DNA from: Deltaproteobacteria bacterium
GTDB taxonomy: Bacteria > Desulfobacterota > WTBG01 > CAIYCZ01 > CAIRTM01
Direction of reading: 5' to 3'
DNA length: 55,514 nt
NCBI GenBank assembly: GCA_016875025.1
Contig: VGSH01000004.1
Coordinates: 1 to 55,514 of the forward strand
Shown: piece by piece, positions 5,924-36,356 of the stretch
How the letters are laid out: each line of letters begins with the position of its first letter
Position numbering within the stretch: position 1 is the first letter of the stretch
Notes under the pieces: generated by a model
The model's database searches: none
Seen by the model: only the letters and a program-made list of their open reading frames with translations
Told to the model about the DNA's origin: nothing
Position numbers and translations under genes: made by a program

Positions 5924-6044
5924 GTGTTCCTCCAGATCACATTCGATTCTAAAACAAGTCTATCACCAGTCTAAACGGCTGTCAACCGGGAAGGACGCAT
6001 GGCTCGAAAAGTGGTGATCACATTCGGAAGAAGGGGGAAAACAA

Positions 6045-6076
6045 AGCTGGATGCCGCATCACGTGCGGCATGACAG
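6045..6076. repeat. REP-like palindrome GGATGCCG...CGGCATGACAG, right of VapBC
   Basis: Arms GGATGCCGCA/TGCGGCAT, same orientation as the element at 4851-4883. The two copies bracket the Phd-type VapBC module. Confidence 0.6.
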
Positions 6077-6106
6077 GACAGATTCATGCGGCTGCCTAGC
6101 AGCCTT

Positions 6107-7789
6107 CTAAAGGCCTTTAAGCGCCTTTTGATAGGCCCGCCACAGCATATCCTTGTCGATGCCGTGATCGAGCACATCCCAGGGCAGAAACTCATCGCGG
6201 CTTCTCCGGCGGCAGACAACCGCTTCCGGTTTATAACCCTCCTGCCGGAAGGCGCGCGGCCAGCTGCCCAGTGCATGCGCGCTCAGCAAAATTTTTGACA
6301 GGCGCCGGTCGCCCGTGCTCAGCAGCGCCTGCACCAGGCTCATGCGGGGCGAATCACAGCTCAGCTGTATCTTTTTTTCCGTGCGCAGCGCAGCCTGTAT
6401 ACGGGCCAGCTTGTGCTTGAGGCTGTCGAGGGGCTCAAAGCCATGCCACTGAAACGGCGTAAACGACTTGGGCACAAACGGGCTGATGCTGAGCGTCAGC
6501 CGGCGAAGCCTGTCCCTGCCGCCGCACGCCGCGCGGTAGCGGGCCGCAATCGCAACGGCCAGCTCGGCGATGGCGTCGATATCCTCATCGCGCTCGCCCG
6601 GCAGCCCGATCATGAAATACAACCGGATGGACGATACCCCCTGAGCGGCAAATATCTCAACGGCGCGCATGATGTCGCTGTGGGAAATGCCCTTACCCAG
6701 CACGTCCCGCAGGCGCTGCGTTGCCGCCTCCGGTGCGATCGTAAACGTCGTGTGTCCGCAGGCGGCAAGCAGTGCGACCATGTGTGCAGTAAGCGCATCG
6801 GCCCGCAGCGATGATATGGAAACATGACCGCCCCGCTCAACGATATGGCGCATCAGTTCCTCAAGGTTCGGATGGTCTGAGACAGCCGCGCCCAGAAGAC
6901 CGATTTTAATGTCCTGCTGCAGCAGAGGCTCTATCTCGGCGACGAGGCTCACAAGGGAGCGCCTGCGAAAGGGCGCATACTGGCTGCTCACAGCGCAGAA
7001 CCGGCAGCCGCGCGGGCAGCCGCGGCTGACCTCCACAAGTGCCATGTCGGCAAACTGCGTGTGCGGCGTCAGGATACAGGAGCTGCCGTGGCAGGTATTG
7101 AGATCAGCCGGACGCCGGGCCGCAACCGGAAGCCCCGCCTGAGCTGAGCCCTGCATACCGTGCAATCGCTCCCCGTCGTAGAGCGGGACCACGAGCCCGG
7201 GCGCATAGAAGCCACCGATATGATCGAAATCTTCTGCGCGCAGGCGGTGTGCGCACCCCGGCTGAAGGCACGCCAGGGCCCGCTCTATAAAATCCGGCAG
7301 CAGTGCCTCGGCCTCACCGATTGCGAACAGATCAAAAATATCGGCTAGAGGCTCAGGGTTCATGCTCACCGCTACCCCGCCGGCAACCAGCAGAGGAGCG
7401 CCCTGTTGCCGCTCAGAGCGCAGCGCCGGTATGCCTGCCAGCGCCAGCATGTGCACGACATTCAGATAATCGCTTTCAAACGACAGCGAAAAGGCGATGC
7501 AGTCAAAGCTGCCCGGCGCTGCACCGCTTTCAATCGAGCGCAGCGTGCCTGCGCTCTGTCCCGAATCAGGCAGGAAAAACCGCTCGCAGCACACCTCAGG
7601 GTGCAGGCACAGCAGGCGATAGACCAGCTGGAAACCTAAATTCGACATGCCGACCGCGTAGGTGTTCGGAAACGCAAGCGCAACGCGCAAACCAACCCGG
7701 TGAGTGCCGGTTGCAAGCAGACTGCGCTCATGCTCTTTATACGGAACATCTGAAGTGCGGCATTTCTTTCGTGCAGCAGTGCGCTTCAT
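6107..7789 (-). CDS. Radical SAM protein with B12-binding-like N-terminus
   Basis: A 560-residue protein. Residues about 30-170 look like a cobalamin-binding-type Rossmann domain (VALAFPNTYAVGMSNLGFQ, ...LLVAGGVAVSMNPEPLADIFDLFAIGEAE). The radical SAM core follows, with the iron-sulfur motif CPRGCRFC (C258, C262, C265) and later SSIRLYFMIGLPGE. This matches a family of uncharacterised radical SAM proteins (TIGR03960 type); the substrate is unknown. It follows ftsZ on the same strand but lies behind a strong terminator, so it is probably transcribed separately. An in-frame start at 7789 fits the expected N-terminus. The family is firm, the reaction unknown. Confidence 0.85.
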   Translation of the reverse strand: MKRTAARKKCRTSDVPYKEHERSLLATGTHRVGLRVALAFPNTYAVGMSNLGFQLVYRLLCLHPEVCCERFFLPDSGQSAGTLRSIESGAAPGSFDCIAFSLSFESDYLNVVHMLALAGIPALRSERQQGAPLLVAGGVAVSMNPEPLADIFDLFAIGEAEALLPDFIERALACLQPGCAHRLRAEDFDHIGGFYAPGLVVPLYDGERLHGMQGSAQAGLPVAARRPADLNTCHGSSCILTPHTQFADMALVEVSRGCPRGCRFCAVSSQYAPFRRRSLVSLVAEIEPLLQQDIKIGLLGAAVSDHPNLEELMRHIVERGGHVSISSLRADALTAHMVALLAACGHTTFTIAPEAATQRLRDVLGKGISHSDIMRAVEIFAAQGVSSIRLYFMIGLPGERDEDIDAIAELAVAIAARYRAACGGRDRLRRLTLSISPFVPKSFTPFQWHGFEPLDSLKHKLARIQAALRTEKKIQLSCDSPRMSLVQALLSTGDRRLSKILLSAHALGSWPRAFRQEGYKPEAVVCRRRSRDEFLPWDVLDHGIDKDMLWRAYQKALKGL

Positions 7790-9228: not shown

Positions 9229-10455
9229 TTAAAAAGCTTCAGCAAACCAGTGCTTCACGCGCTCGCCCAGTTTCCAGGTGCTGCGGGCGTTGCGGTTGGC
9301 AGCCTGCGCGCTGACGACCGGCTGCGATGAGGCGGTTTTTAAAAGGCCAACCGCAGTTGCGAACTGCGGATGCCTGATATCGGTAATGCCGCTGACATCC
9401 TGCGGCAGCCCGATGCGCACCGGCAGGCCCAGGATCTGCTCAGCCATCTGCGCAAGACCGCCAAGCTGTGCGCTGCCGCCGGTCAGCACGACACCGGAGG
9501 CCAGATACTCAAGCATGCCGCACTGGATAAGCTCGCGCCGGGCGAGCTGCAGCGTTTCCTCGGTGCGCGCGCCGATAATGCGGCACAGCGTGCCTGCCGA
9601 GATTGAGCGCTCATCATCAGTGCCGATGCCGGGAACCGTGATCGCGTGTTCGGGGTAATGGGTCGGGAACACCGCATGTCCGAAATCTTTCTTGATGATT
9701 TCAGCCTGCGAAAGGGGCGTGCGCAGCCCGATGGCGATATCGGACGTTATCTGATTGCCGCCGATCGGCAGGGTGGCGCAGTAGCGCAGGCTGCCCCGGC
9801 AAAACACGGCGATATCGGTCGTGCCGCCGCCGATATCAAACACCGCGCAGCCGAGCTCCTTTTCATCCCCGGTCAGGACAGCCTCGGCGGACGCAATGTG
9901 ATGCGGCACCATGTCGACGACCTTCAGTCCGCTGCGGTTCATGCACTTCACGATATTGCGCGCGGCTGAAATCGCGCCCGTGATGATATAAACGCGTGAT
10001 TCGAGCCGCACGCCCGCCATGCCGAGCGGATCAATGATATCGTCCTGATCATCAACACGGTATTCCTGGGAAATAATCTGAATCACCTCGCGCTCGGTCG
10101 GGATCACAATCGAGCGCGCGGCCTCAAGCACGCTCTGCACATCGATCTTGCGCACCTCGCGGGTGCTCAGCGGTATGGCCCCGCTGCTCTGAAAGCCCTG
10201 CAAATGGCTGCCGGCAATGCCGATGCGCACGGTGCCGACCTCGGCGTCGGTCATGATCTCAATATCTTCAACCACGCGGCGGATAGCGTCGACCGTGCTG
10301 TCCATGTTGATGATCAGGCCCTTTTTCACACCGTGGGAAGGATGTGAGCTGAAGCCGGTGACAATGATCTCGCCGTTTTCCTGTTCAGCGGCAAGCGCGG
10401 TGATTTTTGTGGTTCCGATATCGATCGCTACAAGTGGTCTGCTTCGTCTGGCCAT
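9229..10455 (-). CDS. ftsA: Cell division protein FtsA
   Basis: A 408-residue actin-fold protein that tethers FtsZ to the membrane. It opens PLVAIDIGTTKITALAAE (phosphate-1 motif) and contains FDIGGGTTDIAVF (phosphate-2) and VVLTGGSAQL (adenosine motif), with the FtsA-specific 1C region between. The C-terminus (TWKLGERVKHWFAEAF) is an amphipathic helix fit for membrane binding. ftsZ follows after 52 bp and ftsQ precedes by 39 bp, the usual order. Confidence 0.97.
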   Translation of the reverse strand: MARRSRPLVAIDIGTTKITALAAEQENGEIIVTGFSSHPSHGVKKGLIINMDSTVDAIRRVVEDIEIMTDAEVGTVRIGIAGSHLQGFQSSGAIPLSTREVRKIDVQSVLEAARSIVIPTEREVIQIISQEYRVDDQDDIIDPLGMAGVRLESRVYIITGAISAARNIVKCMNRSGLKVVDMVPHHIASAEAVLTGDEKELGCAVFDIGGGTTDIAVFCRGSLRYCATLPIGGNQITSDIAIGLRTPLSQAEIIKKDFGHAVFPTHYPEHAITVPGIGTDDERSISAGTLCRIIGARTEETLQLARRELIQCGMLEYLASGVVLTGGSAQLGGLAQMAEQILGLPVRIGLPQDVSGITDIRHPQFATAVGLLKTASSQPVVSAQAANRNARSTWKLGERVKHWFAEAF

Positions 10456-10494
10456 ATACTGAGTCTCCGTAGTTAATAACCTGCACAGCTCTTG

Positions 10495-11325
10495 TCAGGT
10501 GGACACATCCGCTCCCGCTGTCCGGCCGGCCGCTTGCGTGCGGACGCTATCCTGATCAATTTTTACAAAAGCGCGTTCCTGCGACTGCAAATAAATTGAA
10601 CGGGCGCTCAGGCCCCGGCTGCGCAGATCGGCAAGCATGCGGGGCAGCGCTGAGAGCTTGTACTGGTAGTCATCAAAACCCAGATAAATTTCAGGCCCGC
10701 GCGGTTCAGTCTGCAGCGTGCAGCCGAGCTCATGGCTGCAGGTGATGCGGACATTCTCATCCAGCGGCAGCGCGTTCATCTGCAGGGCCGCGACGATCTG
10801 CAGGCCGTCATGGATCATTTTTTCGGCCGCAGCCGGATCCTGCTCGAAATCAGCGCGCGTGAGCCCGCAGACAACCGGCAGGTCAGCATAGCGGCCGGAT
10901 GCCCGGGTGAACACAATGCCGTGCTCATCCACCAGGTACGGTTCATCGAGCGCGATAACCGCCCGGGCCGTGCGCACGCTGACCGCAATCGACAGCGCAT
11001 CGGGATACTTCCTGCGGATAACCGCGCGCTCAATCCAGGCGTTACTCTCGATCAGGCTCCGGAGCGAGCGCAGGTCGGCAGCCACGATGTTTTTCCCTCG
11101 GTACGGCTCGGCATTCACAAGAACCTCTTCGGCGATTGCCGCGTCACAGCCCCTGACATAAATATGGGCGATTTGCATGCCCGGCGCATCATAGATCATG
11201 ATGCCGGCAAGCACGGCTCCGGCAAGCGCAAGGCCCGCAACCGCGGCCATGGCGGCCACACGGATAAAACGGACGTAGTGCTCCTGGCGCTGCATGCGCA
11301 TGCGGTGCACAGAGCGTCGTCTCAT
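10495..11325 (-). CDS. ftsQ: Cell division protein FtsQ
   Basis: A 276-residue bitopic membrane protein. A short, very basic cytoplasmic tail (RRRSVHRMRMQR) is followed by one membrane segment (about 22-46) and a POTRA domain beginning MQIAHIYVRGCDAA, then the FtsQ beta domain with DEPYLVDEHGIVF. It links FtsB/FtsL to the early divisome in the periplasm. Its ATG overlaps the ddl stop by 4 bp. Sequence is weakly conserved in this family, so position and domain order carry much of the call. Confidence 0.9.
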   Translation of the reverse strand: MRRRSVHRMRMQRQEHYVRFIRVAAMAAVAGLALAGAVLAGIMIYDAPGMQIAHIYVRGCDAAIAEEVLVNAEPYRGKNIVAADLRSLRSLIESNAWIERAVIRRKYPDALSIAVSVRTARAVIALDEPYLVDEHGIVFTRASGRYADLPVVCGLTRADFEQDPAAAEKMIHDGLQIVAALQMNALPLDENVRITCSHELGCTLQTEPRGPEIYLGFDDYQYKLSALPRMLADLRSRGLSARSIYLQSQERAFVKIDQDSVRTQAAGRTAGADVST

Positions 11326-27343: not shown

Positions 27344-27396
27344 CCCCAAGAGCGCAGCGGTCAAGGCTGGAAGCCTTGACTCAATGGCGCCCCGTA
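27344..27396. repeat. 53-bp direct repeat, copy 1 (left of AbrB/PIN module)
   Basis: It runs from CCCCAAGAGCGCAGCGGTCA to CTTGACTCAATGG and CCCCGTA. Copy 2 at 28313-28365 differs at about 4 of 53 positions. The two bracket the toxin-antitoxin pair. Confidence 0.8.
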
Positions 27397-27461
27397 CAGA
27401 AGCCGCCGTGAACATAGTATTTTTTACTTGACTGACCCGGCTGCGCAGGCTATGTATAAAT

Positions 27462-27476
27462 GTAAGACATTCTTAC
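27462..27476. promoter_or_regulatory. Inverted repeat, likely operator of the second AbrB antitoxin
   Basis: GTAAG (27462-27466) and CTTAC (27472-27476) separated by 5 bp, just before the antitoxin start. The same half-sites flank the -10 box of the first AbrB-type module (3919-3933), with a 5-bp gap in the opposite order. Confidence 0.5.
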
Positions 27477-27493
27477 TAACTAGGGCTTTGATC

Positions 27494-27763
27494 ATGAATA
27501 CCGTTGAGATTACAAGCCTTTCTTCGAAGGGCCAGATCGTTATTCCCCGTTCCATCCGCACCGCATTGAATATATCCGCTGGAGACAAGTTCGCTGTTAT
27601 ATCCGATGGGGAAAACATCCTGCTGCGTCCTGTTGAAAAGCCCGATATGGCGGCATTCAATAAACTTGTAGCCGAGAGCAGGAAGTTCGCACGTGAAGCA
27701 GGGTTGAAGAAGTCCGATATTACCGCGGCTATCAAAAAGGCACGGTGTGAGAATCGTTCTTGA
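27494..27763 (+). CDS. AbrB-fold antitoxin
   Basis: An 89-residue protein starting MNTVEITSLSSKGQIVIP, with the SpoVT/AbrB DNA-binding hairpin (SSKGQIVIPRSIRTALNISAGDKFAVI) and a helical basic tail (AREAGLKKSDITAAIKKAR) that should bind the toxin. The ATG at 27494 is preferred over upstream TTG/ATG codons because it matches the family start. It overlaps the PIN gene by 17 bp. Confidence 0.85.
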   Translation: MNTVEITSLSSKGQIVIPRSIRTALNISAGDKFAVISDGENILLRPVEKPDMAAFNKLVAESRKFAREAGLKKSDITAAIKKARCENRS

Positions 27764-28151
27764 CACCAACGTGCTAGTTTCCGGAATCTTCTGGGGAGGG
27801 GCACCGCTCACAATACTGGATCATTGGGCATCTGGCGGCTTGGATATTGTCATTACGTCGCCGATTCTCGATGAATACGTGCGGGTTATCAACGAACTGG
27901 GCGGAAAGAACCCGTCCCTTGCCGCCCGTTGGGTTGATCTTCTTACGACGTACCCGGTCATCATCAAAAATCGGGTGTCCATATCCCTGTCACGGGACCC
28001 CGATGATAACAAGTTCCTAGAATGCGCTGTTTATGCCAATGTTGATTGTATCGTCAGCGGCGATTGGGACCTGCTGGCACTCAAGCACATTCATACGATC
28101 CCGATTCTGAAACCTTCAGCCTTTATCTCGCGTTTTTTCCGCTCATCCTGA
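27747..28151 (+). CDS. PIN-domain toxin (PF13470-like)
   Basis: A 134-residue PIN protein starting with GTG: MRIVLDTNVLVSGIFWGGAP (Asp 6), then ITSPILDEYVRVI with the conserved Glu, SRDPDDNKFLECAVYANVDCIVSGDWDLLAL with the remaining acids. It belongs to the group annotated as putative toxin component, PIN family, distinct from classical VapC. It overlaps its antitoxin by 17 bp, so it is co-translated. The active site looks complete. Confidence 0.85.
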   Translation: MRIVLDTNVLVSGIFWGGAPLTILDHWASGGLDIVITSPILDEYVRVINELGGKNPSLAARWVDLLTTYPVIIKNRVSISLSRDPDDNKFLECAVYANVDCIVSGDWDLLALKHIHTIPILKPSAFISRFFRSS

Positions 28152-28312: not shown

Positions 28313-28365
28313 CCCCAAGAGCGCAGCGGTCAAGTCTGTAAGGCTTGACTCAATGGCACCCCGTA
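28313..28365. repeat. 53-bp direct repeat, copy 2 (right of AbrB/PIN module)
   Basis: Same orientation as copy 1 at 27344-27396, with about 4 mismatches. The 0.97-kb unit between them carries the AbrB/PIN module and the GGTCACA palindromes. Confidence 0.8.
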
Positions 28366-28540
28366 TTCCCTTGCCGGGCATATGCTTGCGGGAACGACTC
28401 CGTACGGGCGAAAAATTTTTCGCCCCTGCCTGGGCAGGCACAGGGGCCTGCCCCTGCCAAACGCGTCTCGTTCGTATCCGCGCTCATGCGCAGGAGCGCT
28501 TCACGAAGCGCCCCTACGCTGCAAAACGATGGGGATTAAA

Positions 28541-28641
28541 ACCTTCGAACCTTGAACCCTTGAACCTTGAACCCTTGAAACTTGAACCCTTAAACCTTGA
28601 ACCCTTAAACCTTGAACCCTTAAACCTTGAACCCTTAAACC
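28541..28641. repeat. Tandem array with 15-bp period
   Basis: About six units of CTTGAACCCTTAAAC (variants CTTGAACCCTTGAAC). Read as alternating 7- and 8-bp subunits it resembles the GTTNGGA heptamer arrays elsewhere in the window. It has no spacers of CRISPR type. Confidence 0.75.
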
Positions 28642-28747
28642 CCGCACCCAAAACGCAGCCGGCGCTTATTTTTCAACAGCCGGTTGTGCCTCCTATTGCC
28701 TCTTCCCTGCCATTTTGATTGCCACCAAAAGGTACTTTTGAGAATAT

Positions 28748-29398: not shown

Positions 29399-30898
29399 AT
29401 GTCAGTAACAAACACCAACCGCGCATACCATCTCAGCAAAAGCCTCTTTATCAAGGGCCTGAAGTGCCACAAATACCTCTGGCTTGAAAAGACCCGGCCA
29501 GAACTCAAGGACGAGATCAGTGCCGCCCAGGAGGCGTTGTTCCAGTCCGGAACAGATGTGGGCACGCTGGCCCGCGATCTTTTCCCCGGCGGGGTTGAAA
29601 TCCCTTATGAAGGGCTCAGCTATGCAGAGCAGTTGGCGCGCACCGCTCAGGCAATAGCCGACGGTGTTCCGGCTATCTATGAAGCCGCTTTTTCGTATGA
29701 CGGTATATTCATGAAAGCCGACATTCTGCACAAAACGGTACAGGGCTGGCATCTCTACGAGGTGAAATCATCAACCGGAATGAAAGACGAATATCTCGAT
29801 GACATATCGGTTCAGTACTACGTTCTGAACGGGGCAGGTCTTCTGCTGACCGGAGCAAGCCTTGTGCATATCAACAACCAGTATGTGCGCCAGGGCGCTA
29901 TTGATGTGCATGGACTTTTTGCCATACAAGATATTACCGCCCGGGTCATCAAAAAGCAGCCTTTTGTAACGGAGCAGGCTGCTGCCATGCGCTCTATGCT
30001 TCAGGCTGACATGCCCTGTATCGACATTGGTCCGCAGTGTACAGATCCCTATGAGTGCATGTATACGGGATACTGCTGGCAGCATATTCCCGAACATTCG
30101 GTGTTCAGCCTCCGCGATAGAGGCGTCGATAAGTTTAACCTCTACCGTCAGGGCATTATCCGCATGGAGGACATACCGATAGAACAGCTGCCGTGGATAC
30201 AGCGTCTTCAAGTCGAAGGGACGCTGTATAAAAAAGATCATATTGATGCAGCCGCAGTAAAAGAATTTTTGGGCACACTCCGCTATCCTCGCTGCTTTCT
30301 TGATTTTGAAACAACCTATATGACCCCTGTCCCTCTCCATGACGGGACAAGACCGTACCAGCAGATACCCTTTCAGTTTTCAGCCCACATTCTGGATCAT
30401 GAGGGAGCACAGCTGCGACACTGTGAATTTCTCGCTCCTGCAGGCAGTGACCCGCGCAGGCAATTTTTGGAAAGTCTCGTCGAAGCAGTGCCTGAAAATT
30501 CCTGCATCATAACGTATAACAGCCAGTTCGAAACTGGGAGACTCAATAACTTGAAGGAATGGTTTCCTGAATACGGCCATCGGATCGATGTGATGATTGA
30601 AAACATGGTTGATCTGATGCTGCCTTTCAAACAAAAAAGCGTTTATCTCTGGCAACTGAATGGTTCATATTCACTTAAAGACGTGCTGCCGGTTCTTGTG
30701 CCCGAACTCAGCTATGAGGAACTTAACATAAACAACGGTGAGATGGCTTCAAACGGCTGGCTGGCCCTGGTGCAGGAAACCGATCCTGACAAAGTTGAAA
30801 CCGTTCGTAAACAACTGCTTGAGTATTGCTGCCTTGACACACTGGCAATGGTAAAAATTATTGAAAAACTGAAAGAAATCAACCCTCCAGAGGCTTGA
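29399..30898 (+). CDS. Cas4-like Fe-S nuclease fused to DEDD exonuclease (DUF2779 type)
   Basis: A 499-residue two-domain protein. Residues 1-230 look like a RecB/Cas4-type PD-(D/E)XK nuclease: D108, then E121-V-K123 in YEVKSS, with four cysteines placed as in Cas4 and AddB (C23 in GLKCHKYLW; C214, C220, C226 in CTDPYECMYTGYCW) for an iron-sulfur cluster. Residues 295-490 are a DnaQ-like 3'-5' exonuclease: FLDFET (D302, E304), ITYNSQFE (373-378) and CLDTLAM (D480). DUF2779 proteins have this architecture; their role is not established, but DNA end processing or defence is likely. Co-transcribed with the Tat-signal gene. Confidence 0.8.
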   Translation: MSVTNTNRAYHLSKSLFIKGLKCHKYLWLEKTRPELKDEISAAQEALFQSGTDVGTLARDLFPGGVEIPYEGLSYAEQLARTAQAIADGVPAIYEAAFSYDGIFMKADILHKTVQGWHLYEVKSSTGMKDEYLDDISVQYYVLNGAGLLLTGASLVHINNQYVRQGAIDVHGLFAIQDITARVIKKQPFVTEQAAAMRSMLQADMPCIDIGPQCTDPYECMYTGYCWQHIPEHSVFSLRDRGVDKFNLYRQGIIRMEDIPIEQLPWIQRLQVEGTLYKKDHIDAAAVKEFLGTLRYPRCFLDFETTYMTPVPLHDGTRPYQQIPFQFSAHILDHEGAQLRHCEFLAPAGSDPRRQFLESLVEAVPENSCIITYNSQFETGRLNNLKEWFPEYGHRIDVMIENMVDLMLPFKQKSVYLWQLNGSYSLKDVLPVLVPELSYEELNINNGEMASNGWLALVQETDPDKVETVRKQLLEYCCLDTLAMVKIIEKLKEINPPEA

Positions 30899-30935: not shown

Positions 30936-31931
30936 ATGAAGCCGAACCTGTTTGACTATGCAACCTCCGAACTATCACAGGATGCCTTTTTGTGCTGGCT
31001 TTTAGCCTGGGCACATCCTGATAACCTGTCTGTCAACAGTCTCTTGCATCGAACCGGCACAGCATTTCTTCAGGCCCTGTATGTAAAAGCCGGACGACAG
31101 GCTCCTGAAGTAATAAAAAGTCTAGAAATCACGAAACAGAATGGATCAATCGATGTCCTTTGCATTGTCAATGCCGAAACCGCAATAATTATCGAGGACA
31201 AGACCGCCACCTCACAACACTCCGGACAGCTTGAGCGCTATAAAAATCATATCCTCAGTAAAGGTTATTCTGTTGAGAATATAATCCCCATCTACATGAA
31301 GACTGGCAACCAGAGTGATTTCAGCGATGTGATAAAAAGCGGCTATTTCATTTTTAAACGCAATGACTTATTGCAGATACTGGAGCCAGCCCTTGCAGAA
31401 TCCAATAATAATGCCGGGGACATCTTTGCTGATTTTACCGCCTATCTTCGCAGGATTGAAGACGCGGTTCAGAGTTATGCCACCACACCGCCTGCTGACT
31501 GGACGTGGCATGCCTGGGAGGGCTTCTTTACTAAAATACAAGAGCAGCTCAATGATGGCAACTGGGACTATGTGCCAAATCCTTCCGGCGGTTTTCTGGG
31601 GTACTGGTGGTGTTTTTTGGGAGATTCCGATTGTGAGCAGTACCTTCAACTGGAGCAGGAAAAACTTTGTTTTAAGATTTCCGTGGCTGATCAAGCGAGG
31701 CGAGCCGAGCTGAGAGATTTTTGGCACAACAAAATCATGCAAGGAGCCGCCGGTTTTCCTTTGACCGTAAAAAGGCCGAACCGCCTCGGGCATGGCGCAT
31801 ATATGACTGTGGCTGTTCTGGACAATGATTATCGAATTACAGATGACAAGGGTTTGCTTGATTTTCCCAAAACCATATCCGTCATACGCAGCGCAGAAGC
31901 AGTTCTAAAAAAATGCGTGGAGCAGAATTAA
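30936..31931 (+). CDS. PD-(D/E)XK superfamily protein (PF14281-like)
   Basis: A 331-residue protein. The start LFDYATSELSQDAFLCWLLAWAHPD is typical of PDDEXK_4 proteins. The catalytic signature follows: SIDVLCIVNAETAIIIEDKT with D73 and E87-D-K89. The C-terminal half (about 180-331) is an aromatic-rich domain (GGFLGYWWCFLGDSD) that may recognise nucleic acid or a partner. Starts 37 bp after the nuclease-fusion gene. Such proteins turn up in accessory and defence regions; the biochemical role is not established. A second, shorter family member is encoded at 33458-34237 on the other strand. Confidence 0.75.
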   Translation: MKPNLFDYATSELSQDAFLCWLLAWAHPDNLSVNSLLHRTGTAFLQALYVKAGRQAPEVIKSLEITKQNGSIDVLCIVNAETAIIIEDKTATSQHSGQLERYKNHILSKGYSVENIIPIYMKTGNQSDFSDVIKSGYFIFKRNDLLQILEPALAESNNNAGDIFADFTAYLRRIEDAVQSYATTPPADWTWHAWEGFFTKIQEQLNDGNWDYVPNPSGGFLGYWWCFLGDSDCEQYLQLEQEKLCFKISVADQARRAELRDFWHNKIMQGAAGFPLTVKRPNRLGHGAYMTVAVLDNDYRITDDKGLLDFPKTISVIRSAEAVLKKCVEQN

Positions 31932-32029
31932 TCTGCAAAACGAAAAAGACGATTGCCGCCGAATATTTCCCTTTATTCATTGATAATGCGAACCCACTTC
32001 GCAAAAAAATATCTACGGGAGCATTCAAT

Positions 32030-32902
32030 ATGCAACGCCTGAGAGAACTCAACTTCAATGATCTCATCTATATCGATACCCCGAACATTGCTGCATATAC
32101 ATTTGACCATTACAGAAAAAATGGTTATGGACACCCCTCCATTTCAGGATACTGCACTGCGTGCGAGGAAAAGGGGTGCAATTGCGCGGCTGATGACCAA
32201 ACATACCGACTGACCAATATTTCTCACGGGGCGCATTCCAGCGACTTTTTCCTGGCCTTAAAGGACAAACCCGACGTTAGCTCATGGCATAATGAACCAA
32301 TCGTTTTTGTATATGAAACTCCAAGCCTTGACTACGGCATTTACAAAGACGTGGCGTACAAAGGATATAACAAGCGCCCTTCAAAGGATTGGTACTGGAT
32401 TCATGATGATCAGGATTATGCGGTATATCCTGATCGTTTCTGCGGCGGTGAATATGGCGGATTTGTTTTAAGCGCAATCCTGACTTTCAAACTATCGAAC
32501 GTGTATATCACAAATCTCGTCAAATGCGGCTTGAACAATTCTGAAGGGAAGTTCAAGGGGCTGGGTTGCTATAATGAGGAGACGATCAAGGAGTGTTATG
32601 CCAAATTTCTGAAGAATGAATTAGATATTCTCAAACCAAAAATCATTTTTGCCGTCGGTTCTGCTGTTGAAGAATGGGTTTCATGGTTTGTCAAGGATGC
32701 GTATTATGTTCAGCAGCTGCCACATCCTGCCGGACGGCGAAGAGGCTTCAGAGATGACCACTACAAAGCCTTATACTTCTGGGTTATAGTTCGGGCGCTT
32801 CACAAGGCGGGTATAATTGACACAGCCGGAGGGAAAGAATTGGCAGGGTTGTATTTAGAAAGATATGATAAAAAAATCTCCATTAACCTGGGCACACTGT
32901 AA
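32030..32902 (+). CDS. Uracil-DNA-glycosylase-superfamily-like protein with N-terminal Cys cluster
   Basis: A 290-residue protein. FVYETPSLDYG (93-103) stands where the UDG motif A lies, followed by GGEYGGFVLSAILTFKLSNVYITNLVKC (ending at 166) and CYAKFLKNELDILKPKIIFAVGSA, both close to family-4-type UDGs, and QLPHPAGRR near 240 in the place of the HPS motif. N-terminal cysteines C42, C45, C50 and C52 could bind zinc or an iron-sulfur cluster. The catalytic Asp/Glu of known UDGs is not obvious, so activity is uncertain. The ATG at 32030 has GGGAG 8 nt before it; an earlier ATG at 31913 lies inside the previous gene. Confidence 0.6.
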   Translation: MQRLRELNFNDLIYIDTPNIAAYTFDHYRKNGYGHPSISGYCTACEEKGCNCAADDQTYRLTNISHGAHSSDFFLALKDKPDVSSWHNEPIVFVYETPSLDYGIYKDVAYKGYNKRPSKDWYWIHDDQDYAVYPDRFCGGEYGGFVLSAILTFKLSNVYITNLVKCGLNNSEGKFKGLGCYNEETIKECYAKFLKNELDILKPKIIFAVGSAVEEWVSWFVKDAYYVQQLPHPAGRRRGFRDDHYKALYFWVIVRALHKAGIIDTAGGKELAGLYLERYDKKISINLGTL

Positions 32903-32906
32903 CAGC

Positions 32907-33461
32907 TTACAAAGTTTTGGCAGATAAACAACCATCGACAACACCGCCAATTTCTTCTATTTCTTTGCATATATCTTCCAAAAATTCACTCTGCGAATAA
33001 AGAGCCATAAGCGTTCGCTCCTTGTCGAAGTGACGATAGTCATCAGACAAATTACGATACCACGCCCACCACTCATTAGAAGTACTATTGCCAAAATGAT
33101 TTTTTAAAGCCAAAAAAATTTGATTTTTTGTTTCAGAGGCAATTTTGTCGCTATGTGCTGCGATTCCGATAATATAGTCATGGCCACCGCCTGTTTGTGC
33201 CTCAATGCAAACATATAAATCTTTTATCCAATTTGATTTGCGGCATACCATCCCGGCATACTTCGCAAATGGTTCATTTTCCCACGGTTTTATGTCTACA
33301 TCCCAATTACCCTTTTTCAACCTTGCCGCTAAGGCTTTAGCAAAATCTCTAACTAAAATATTCCTCAACTCATTGAAAGCAAGCCCTACACATATCGCTG
33401 TCTGCATGTTTTCGCGACTAGACTTTGCATGTTCGATAATTTTGTCCGAATACAAATTCAT
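32907..33461 (-). CDS. Unknown partner protein of the PD-(D/E)XK gene
   Basis: A 184-residue soluble protein with no family I can name. It has a helical N-terminus, a mid segment IKDLYVCIEAQTGGGHDYIIGIAAHSDKI, and WWAWYRNLSDDYRHFD. Its ATG overlaps the stop of the upstream nuclease-like gene by 4 bp, so the two are made together and probably interact. Its stop is only 4 bp from the stop of the UDG-like gene on the other strand, with no terminator between. Confidence 0.6.
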   Translation of the reverse strand: MNLYSDKIIEHAKSSRENMQTAICVGLAFNELRNILVRDFAKALAARLKKGNWDVDIKPWENEPFAKYAGMVCRKSNWIKDLYVCIEAQTGGGHDYIIGIAAHSDKIASETKNQIFLALKNHFGNSTSNEWWAWYRNLSDDYRHFDKERTLMALYSQSEFLEDICKEIEEIGGVVDGCLSAKTL

Positions 33462-34237
33462 TGCGCCACCTCATCCTGGGGTTGTGTAAAATTTAATTCT
33501 ATATAGCGAAGAAAATCTTTTAGTATCCAACGTACCCTGTCAGGCTCAGCAACAAACAGGCATCGGTTAATCCAATCAACCAAATGCGGGCGATACGATA
33601 AAACAACAAAGCTCCCCTGTTTTTTAAGCTCTATCTGATCTTTTTTGGATAGACTTTGCTGAGAAGGTGGGCCCCCGGTACCACTCAAATAAACCATTAT
33701 GTGCGCCTTGGGGTATTTGTTTTGCAGATATTCATGATAATCCTTGAGTTGGTCTTTTTGATCTATAGTCCACGGTTTGTTTTCAATCATCACCCCACAT
33801 TCATGATTGCCAATCACTATATCCATTCTGCGTTGAGATGCTGCAATGAGATCCGTTGCCTGTTCAGTAGAAACTTTCAGATTAGACGATCCATTCCAAG
33901 ATTTTTTTATTATTTCTATGCTGCTGTATGCGCTGCTGTCTTCGCGTGCTAATTCCTCTATGAAATCTAAAAATTCATATAGAAAGATAGCCCCCTGGCC
34001 ATGCGCAGCCGAGGGATCAAGCAATTTCGCTATCAAATTTGACAATCGCATCTCGTCCGGCCAAAGGACAGAAAACAGGCTGAAATCCGGAGCGACAAGC
34101 CGATCTATTTCTTTTTTAGCTTTGTCGGTTGTCGCTATTAAAACCCGCAATTCCTCGAAATATTTTTGAATATCAATATCTTTGCTATCAGTAGCCATAA
34201 AGACCCCGTCATTGATAACTTTTGGTTCTTTTAACAT
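33458..34237 (-). CDS. PD-(D/E)XK superfamily protein (PF14281-like), shorter paralogue
   Basis: A 259-residue protein (246 if started at the ATG at 34198, MATDSKDID). It has the family N-terminal block LFSVLWPDEMRLSNLIAKLLDP and the catalytic signature RRMDIVIGNHECGVMIENKP with D139 and E152-N-K154, then a DQLKDYHEYLQNKYPKAHIMVYLSG segment typical of these nucleases. It lacks the aromatic C-terminal domain of the protein at 30936. It forms a two-gene unit with the partner at 32907 and is read away from operator site 2. Confidence 0.72.
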   Translation of the reverse strand: MLKEPKVINDGVFMATDSKDIDIQKYFEELRVLIATTDKAKKEIDRLVAPDFSLFSVLWPDEMRLSNLIAKLLDPSAAHGQGAIFLYEFLDFIEELAREDSSAYSSIEIIKKSWNGSSNLKVSTEQATDLIAASQRRMDIVIGNHECGVMIENKPWTIDQKDQLKDYHEYLQNKYPKAHIMVYLSGTGGPPSQQSLSKKDQIELKKQGSFVVLSYRPHLVDWINRCLFVAEPDRVRWILKDFLRYIELNFTQPQDEVAQ

Positions 34238-35348: not shown

Positions 35349-35426
35349 TTCTTAATTGTTCTTTCCGGTGAAATGGCTTATATGGTTATACAAAACAAGA
35401 AACCCATACATATCGGAAGGCAGGAT

Positions 35427-36356
35427 ATGGTCCCCAAAGCACGACTGGTAGAAAAGCGCATTGAGCGGTTCGTAAAAATATTCCAGCTGTTTTTCCAGGG
35501 TGACAGGATTTACAGCGCAGCCCTGAGCCAGAAGCTCGGTGTCGAAATCCGCACGATCCAGCGCGACCTCGAAGCCATGCGCAAGGCAGGCTTTCCCGTG
35601 AACGAGATCAAAAAAGGCTGCTACAGTCTTGATAAGAATTTGTTCAAGCACTACGAGCATTTTGACGACAGCGAACTTGCCCTGGTGCTTGCCATGAAAA
35701 ACGCCGCGATCCAGCTCGGCCCACTTTTTCAGGATGCGGCAGACTCAGTTTTCAATAAACTCTTCCGAGAGCTCGCTGAAGAACCGCTTTCTCCCGTTTG
35801 CCTGCAAATCGAAAAGCCGGTGCTGCTTGATAACCGCCTTTTTATAAAAGCCGTAAAGGCCATTCAGGCGCGCAAACGCATAACGTTCACCTATGAAATC
35901 TACGCTCCCTACACCGCTACGGTTGAACCCTACAAGATAATTTACTTTGACGGGCTGTGGTATCTCATCGGCCGTGATGTTGAGCGTAGCGCCAACAGGA
36001 CCTATGCCCTTGACAGGATCAAGGATTTCATGGTTCTCAAGGAAACATTTCGCCGGATTCCAGACGATCTCGACGGCAATATCTGGTTCTCCGGGGAGCG
36101 TACAACGGAAGTGCAGATACTTGTTGACAGCGACAGCGCTCATCATTTCAAGCGCCGCAGAATATTCCCCACTCAACAGATACGGGAAGAAAAAAAAGAC
36201 GGCTCTCTGGTTGTTTCATTCATGGTAGGCAATTTTGAGGAAATACGAAACATCCTGAAACGCTGGCTTCCGTGGATCAAAATCCTCGCGCCGGTTGAAC
36301 TGAAGGATCAGTTCGTTGACGATATGAAGGCCTGGCTTAAGTGGCAAAAGTCTTAA
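35427..36356 (+). CDS. WYL-domain transcriptional regulator
   Basis: A 309-residue protein. The N-terminal winged helix (RIERFVKIFQLFFQGDRIYSAALSQKLGVEIRTIQRDLEAMRKAGFPVNEIK, about 8-60) is of the DeoR/HTH_11 type. The WYL domain (about 150-230) contains LWYLIGRDVERSANRTYALDRI, and a WCX-type C-terminal extension follows. WYL proteins bind nucleic-acid-derived or nucleotide ligands, and several (BrxR, CapW) repress defence operons through inverted repeats. The ATG at 35427 has GGAAGG before it; an upstream ATG at 35373 is less likely. The three shared operators suggest it governs genes 28856-36356. Confidence 0.85.
   Translation: MVPKARLVEKRIERFVKIFQLFFQGDRIYSAALSQKLGVEIRTIQRDLEAMRKAGFPVNEIKKGCYSLDKNLFKHYEHFDDSELALVLAMKNAAIQLGPLFQDAADSVFNKLFRELAEEPLSPVCLQIEKPVLLDNRLFIKAVKAIQARKRITFTYEIYAPYTATVEPYKIIYFDGLWYLIGRDVERSANRTYALDRIKDFMVLKETFRRIPDDLDGNIWFSGERTTEVQILVDSDSAHHFKRRRIFPTQQIREEKKDGSLVVSFMVGNFEEIRNILKRWLPWIKILAPVELKDQFVDDMKAWLKWQKS

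Follow-up and report, generated by a model that had tools for sequence, protein, structure and literature searches.

The window analysed here, the whole stretch of 55,514 nucleotides from one contig of a Deltaproteobacteria genome, raises the question of what enzyme is encoded by a gene near its middle, for which a Cas4-like iron-sulfur nuclease fused to a DnaQ-like DEDD exonuclease had originally been predicted, and what role such an enzyme could have. The predicted single protein of 499 residues was recovered as one reading frame with an AAGGAG ribosome-binding site immediately 5' of it. Coordinates are given in Table 1.

Table 1. Features of the DUF2779 locus, with positions in the window
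Feature	Position	Strand	Basis
DUF2779 protein gene	29399..30898	+	single ORF, 499 aa, ATG to stop
Cas4-type PD-(D/E)XK domain, about residues 11-230	29429..30088	+	invariant residues, Cas4 profile match, model
Helical linker between domains, about residues 231-294	30089..30280	+	model secondary structure, pLDDT >90
RNase H-fold 3'-5' exonuclease domain, about residues 295-499	30281..30895	+	PF11074, PF13482, invariant acids, PolB fold
PDDEXK_4 (PDC-S26-like) nuclease gene, 331 aa	30936..31931	+	PF14281 E 2e-7, PADLOC PDC-S26 E 3e-11
Uracil-DNA-glycosylase (UDG)-superfamily gene	31913..32902	+	PF03167 E 6e-10
Second PDDEXK_4 gene	33458-34237	-	profile match
WYL-domain regulator, 4.5 kb downstream of DUF2779 gene	35373..36356	+	PF13280 E 2e-15

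Pfam profile searches assigned the protein to DUF2779 (PF11074, residues 299-425, E 5e-40, 137 bits against a curated cut-off of 23.3), with an additional match to RNase_H_2 (PF13482, residues 318-491, E 9e-6), both above the Pfam cut-off. PF11074 was matched by all 73 relatives; the nearest relative of the window protein is ~57% identical to it. The only family returned by the NCBIfam search was UU173 of mollicutes (NF045869, residues 299-491), at 50.9 bits against a cut-off of 225; its exonuclease half is homologous, but the window protein is not a member. No match to the window protein was obtained with the PADLOC models or the PHROGs, nor with TIGR03491 or PF01930 at E 1 or below. DUF2779 is a known but uncharacterised family, to which the window protein belongs as an ordinary member.

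Majorek et al. 2014 (PMC3985635) assigned DUF2779, as family F.17, to the clade of 3'-5' exonucleases within the RNase H-like superfamily, and described DUF83, a domain resembling PD-(D/E)XK nucleases, in both F.17 and F.13 (COG2251). The fusion of a Cas4-like nuclease to an exonuclease is the already published architecture of DUF2779 (PMC3985635), and the window protein, with the same full match and two domains, shows no essential difference from it. In COG2251/TM0106 (TIGR03491), too, an RNase H-like domain accompanies a DUF83-like nuclease, and TIGR03491 matched 19 of the 73 DUF2779 relatives; COG2251 proteins often carry AAA domains (PMC3985635), whereas the window protein has none. No biochemical or defence study of DUF2779 was found in the open-access literature. 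Two nucleases in one chain, as originally predicted, are well supported by conservation, profiles and a confident model and clearly exceed chance, but the novelty implied for them was forestalled by the 2014 description.

Conservation was evaluated in an alignment of 106 full-length rows from many phyla, for which the closer set of relatives was used and not the more diverse first set; relatives were drawn from related genomes, from plasmids and from a scan in which each GTDB species was represented by one genome. All residues named in the original prediction lie at the implied positions. D108, E121, K123, C214, C220 and C226 of the N-terminal half and D302, E304 and D480 of the C-terminal half are invariant (106/106 rows), and the fourth cysteine, C23, is kept in 105 of the 106. 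Further invariant residues are E95, D135, Q139, H330, E378, D405, S425, K427, Y476 and C477. Because both catalytic sets are invariant in all rows, both halves are under selection. An arrangement with catalysis confined to one domain and DNA binding left to the other is suggested by the Glu in motif II of the exonuclease half, where Asp is usual, but the expected catalytic residues of both halves, E378 included, are invariant in these rows, and we consider it unlikely.

The key residues of the N-terminal domain are C23, E95, D108, E121, K123, Q139, C214, C220 and C226. Profile-profile alignment with genuine Cas4 sequences paired D108, E121-x-K123 and Q139 with their D, E-x-K and Q, and an alignment of the same type paired C214, C220 and C226 with the three C-terminal Cas4 cysteines. 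The probability was 86.7% against the whole Cas4 set and 94.4% (E 9e-8) against the closest Cas4 subset; shuffling the columns of the whole set in 30 controls gave no more than 0.5%. A second Cas4 subset gave no profile-profile alignment with the DUF2779 profile, so the relation to Cas4 is distant and the link rests on the closest subset, Pfam and structure. PF01930 (Cas_Cas4) matched 30 of the 73 family members at E 0.01 or below (best E 4.6e-7), and its search of the genome picked up two DUF2779 proteins. The cysteines follow the Cas4 layout of one N-terminal (C23) and three C-terminal residues (C214, C220, C226). Of the Cas4/AddB arrangement originally proposed, the four conserved cysteines stand, while the C-terminal spacing of C-X5-C-X5-C departs from the C-X2-C-X5-C of aligned Cas4 proteins. 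Judged by these residues, the N-terminal half would be a Cas4-type nuclease with a predicted iron-sulfur cluster on C23/C214/C220/C226.

In the C-terminal domain the key residues are D302, E304, E378, D405, Y476 and D480. Motif I, D-x-E (D302, E304), and D480 of motif III are present together with a predicted RNase H fold. Motif II was assigned from its pattern, YNxxFE, and not from coordinates, and it has an invariant Glu378 instead of the usual Asp. Motif III, Y476-x3-D480, is of the type found in family-B polymerases, whose exonucleases have 3'-5' polarity. On these motifs the exonuclease half is read as a DEDD-like variant in which an acidic residue is retained at motif II. A DEDD exonuclease domain had correctly been predicted, but it is closer to the polymerase-B tyrosine (DEDDy-like) type than to DnaQ, and has Glu378 in motif II. 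When hhalign was run against one E. coli Pol II sequence, the exonuclease domain was not detected.

An AlphaFold2 model was built on 73 sequences, with a mean pLDDT of 95.5 and a pTM of 0.90. Searching the PDB by sequence brought no usable match, and similarity emerged from fold comparison only, for which VIA-align was run on candidates proposed by Foldseek. The best Foldseek matches were Cas4, MGME1 and RecE. Residues 6-231 aligned with Cas4 of the Cas4/1-Cas2 complex (7mi4; Z 14.9, 186 residues, 3.4 A) and with SSO0001 (4ic1; Z 13.2). Residues 295-499 aligned with family-B polymerase exonuclease domains (5iud, Z 15.2, 178 residues, 3.3 A; 5mdn, Z 14.5), the Z range against these proofreading domains being about 13-15. 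The RecB-like core and the RNase H fold are both present in the predicted structure, and with conservation and profile comparison this confident model supports the two-domain assignment. The linker is weakly similar to the corresponding region of a TM0106-family protein. Three giant-virus proteins in BFVD (E3T4R0, A0A3G4ZWN9 and A0A5K0U8I2) match the entire two-domain model with a TM-score to the query of ~0.6, and viruses of eukaryotes may, on these model matches, carry a similar pair of nucleases.

The resemblances help to place the protein among known systems. With Cas4 (PF01930) it shares the predicted fold, the D/E-x-K/Q motif and four cysteines, but it differs in its exonuclease fusion, its C-X5-C-X5-C spacing and its lack of cas1 or CRISPR association. 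The observation that no CRISPR array or cas genes are near was confirmed: neither Cas1 (PF01867) nor Cas4 (PF01930) was found anywhere in the genome, nor any CRISPR-like array at 20-40 kb of the window, and a CRISPR-associated Cas4 identity was rejected. With the 3'-5' exonuclease domain of family-B DNA polymerases it shares the fold and the tyrosine-type motif III, but it has no polymerase domain and carries Glu in motif II. UvrD-Cas4 fusions and solo-Cas4 proteins offer a further parallel, a Cas4-like domain fused to another DNA enzyme, although the partner of UvrD-Cas4 is a helicase and that of DUF2779 an exonuclease (PMC5704561). Cas4 proteins cut single-stranded DNA 5'-3', and one report adds 3'-5' activity (PMC5704561).

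Taken as an enzyme, the Cas4-type half, with its active site of D108, E121 and K123, would cut or resect single-stranded DNA ends or flaps, and the iron-sulfur cluster on its four cysteines would hold the N-terminal half together. The polymerase-B-type half (D302, E304, E378, D480, Y476) would act as a 3'-5' exonuclease that trims with the opposite polarity, and the two halves may jointly act on both strands of a DNA end, or clear flaps, with no need for their own helicase. Such an activity would also suit a host repair or recombination nuclease trimming ends and flaps in the manner of AddB/RecB, Dna2 and MGME1, and the structural neighbours of the N-terminal domain, namely Cas4, AddB, RecE and MGME1, agree with this possible but less probable role. 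We favour, at about even chances, a different role for this two-nuclease enzyme, that of an acquired gene helping to restrict or degrade foreign DNA, and the genomic context bears on the choice.

The gene lies in a region of lowered GC content, 42-50% across 28-36 kb of the window compared with about 54-64% in the flanks, adjoining genes that we take, by eye from the sequence, to be rsmH and mraZ. A PDDEXK_4 gene starts 37 nt 3' of it on the same strand and is a likely operon partner. The UDG-superfamily gene overlaps this nuclease gene by 19 nt and is possibly the third gene of the operon; it was not found beside other DUF2779 genes. Its product has about 190 extra N-terminal residues and is rare, with relatives in 2 of 146 other genomes. 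On the opposite strand, two reading frames overlapping by 4 nt (32907-34237) hit the same PDC-S26 models, one in the N-terminal and one in the C-terminal part, and by these matches may represent a PDDEXK_4 defence candidate split in two. Upstream of the operon, a 15-nt tandem repeat (AACCTTGAACCCTTG-like) occurs in seven register copies (28525-28650). A MazE-type antitoxin/PIN toxin pair (27428-28151) lies between two 53-nt direct repeats (27344-27396 and 28313-28365), which are 92% alike and have a palindromic core. Contig C69 of the source genome carries a third copy (691-744), with a WYL gene at a distance of about 2 kb, and the repeats around the pair may mark a mobile cassette.

Elsewhere, WYL genes were found within 5 kb in 24 of 107 DUF2779 loci, 18 of these outside the plasmid loci and the window. 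Within 2 kb of DUF2779 genes, 18 WYL genes in 378 kb correspond to 0.048 per kb, and at 6-10 kb the density falls to 0.008 per kb (3 in 368 kb), against a background of ~0.0003 per kb in 39 related genomes (36 in about 126 Mb); the enrichment factors are approximate, as the control genomes are related to the window and not to every locus, and the loci are mutually related. PDDEXK_4-type genes occur within 5 kb in 10 of the 107 loci, with 8 of 11 matches within 1 kb, and only 7 such genes were counted across 147 related genomes. An orthologue of the 331-residue PDDEXK_4 protein (E 9e-69) directly adjoins DUF2779 in the gammaproteobacterium Thiomicrorhabdus cannonii, on the opposite side of the gene compared with the window, and the pair therefore recurs across phyla. 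Among same-strand adjacent genes the commonest matches were PDDEXK_4 (7/91), WYL (5), McrBC (3) and HD/dGTPase (3), the PADLOC counts being descriptive. The neighbourhoods of DUF2779 genes show a strong enrichment in WYL regulators and PDDEXK_4 nucleases, a context that may be new.

A dGTPase gene stands directly or closely downstream of DUF2779 in five Campylobacterota loci (L107, L111, L120, L034 and L033). On a Sphingobium plasmid, DUF2779 and TM0106-family nuclease genes (5992-7476 and 9466-10662) lie 2 kb apart, with WYL genes between and beside them.

Some UvrD-Cas4 and solo-Cas4 loci also include WYL genes and were read as defence loci (PMC5704561). The neighbours of DUF2779 could nevertheless accompany a repair enzyme, if defence genes are nearby merely because both gather in variable regions. 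DUF2779 is found beside ndk in some Bacteroidota, which fits a chromosomal housekeeping role and so favours repair, and around the closest relatives, judged from ten hand-picked neighbours, the genes are mostly ordinary, not conserved and unrelated. Against repair stand the strong enrichment of WYL and PDDEXK_4 neighbours, which declines with distance, and the low-GC island at the window locus.

The distribution of the family is patchy: DUF2779 is present in 18 of the 147 related genomes, and such scatter also speaks against repair. Matches were found in 32 plasmid records, 30 of them over at least 80% of the length, and carriage on plasmids is a further point against a repair function. The GTDB scan, with one genome for each species, found at least 530 stretches that encode a relative; a single-protein scan of genome contigs gave no match. 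The source genome has a second DUF2779 gene on another contig (C52), 38% identical and of a distant clade. The DUF2779 tree has 16 phylum changes compared with 42.5 when shuffled, tracking phyla beyond chance, so transfer is not rampant, and this partial agreement with phyla counts in favour of repair. A phage origin was considered; Helicobacter phages gave short partial matches only and no PHROG matched.

The sole phenotype for DUF2779 found in the open-access literature concerns a distant gene, Mbov_0804 of Mycoplasma bovis, in which a transposon insertion gave a growth-deficient mutant in cell culture (PMC7373297). It could point to a nuclease of nucleic-acid scavenging or turnover, one whose breakdown of DNA or RNA supplies nucleotides for growth. 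This role we judge quite improbable: the phenotype comes from a single insertion, in a homologue that is very distant and for which the accessible text of the study shows no complementation (PMC7373297), inspection of the window protein shows no export signal, and the hosts in the present data are mostly free-living.

The neighbours, together with a distribution that is patchy and plasmid-borne, favour defence over plain repair. In that role the gene, which sits in a low-GC island beside a PDDEXK_4 nuclease gene, would be horizontally acquired and act against foreign DNA. Counting against defence are the lack of a PADLOC match, the ordinary neighbours of the nearest relatives and a tree that partly follows phyla. 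That the protein trims DNA ends for defence or repair, as originally proposed, is plausible, with support from the WYL/PDDEXK_4 enrichment, plasmid carriage and the low-GC island; the role itself, like the metal cluster, polarity and substrate, we infer. More speculatively, and rather doubtfully, DUF2779 and the adjacent PDDEXK_4 gene could form an undescribed two-gene defence module, often WYL-controlled, in which DUF2779 finishes the ends made by PDDEXK_4.

A widespread and unstudied protein with opposite-polarity nuclease types in one chain would be useful as a DNA-end-processing enzyme. Should its role be in repair, it would be an accessory, plasmid-carried enzyme, which is also informative. 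The recurring pairing of PDDEXK_4 and WYL genes with DUF2779 is the most useful lead, offering a concrete hypothesis for a family that lacked one.
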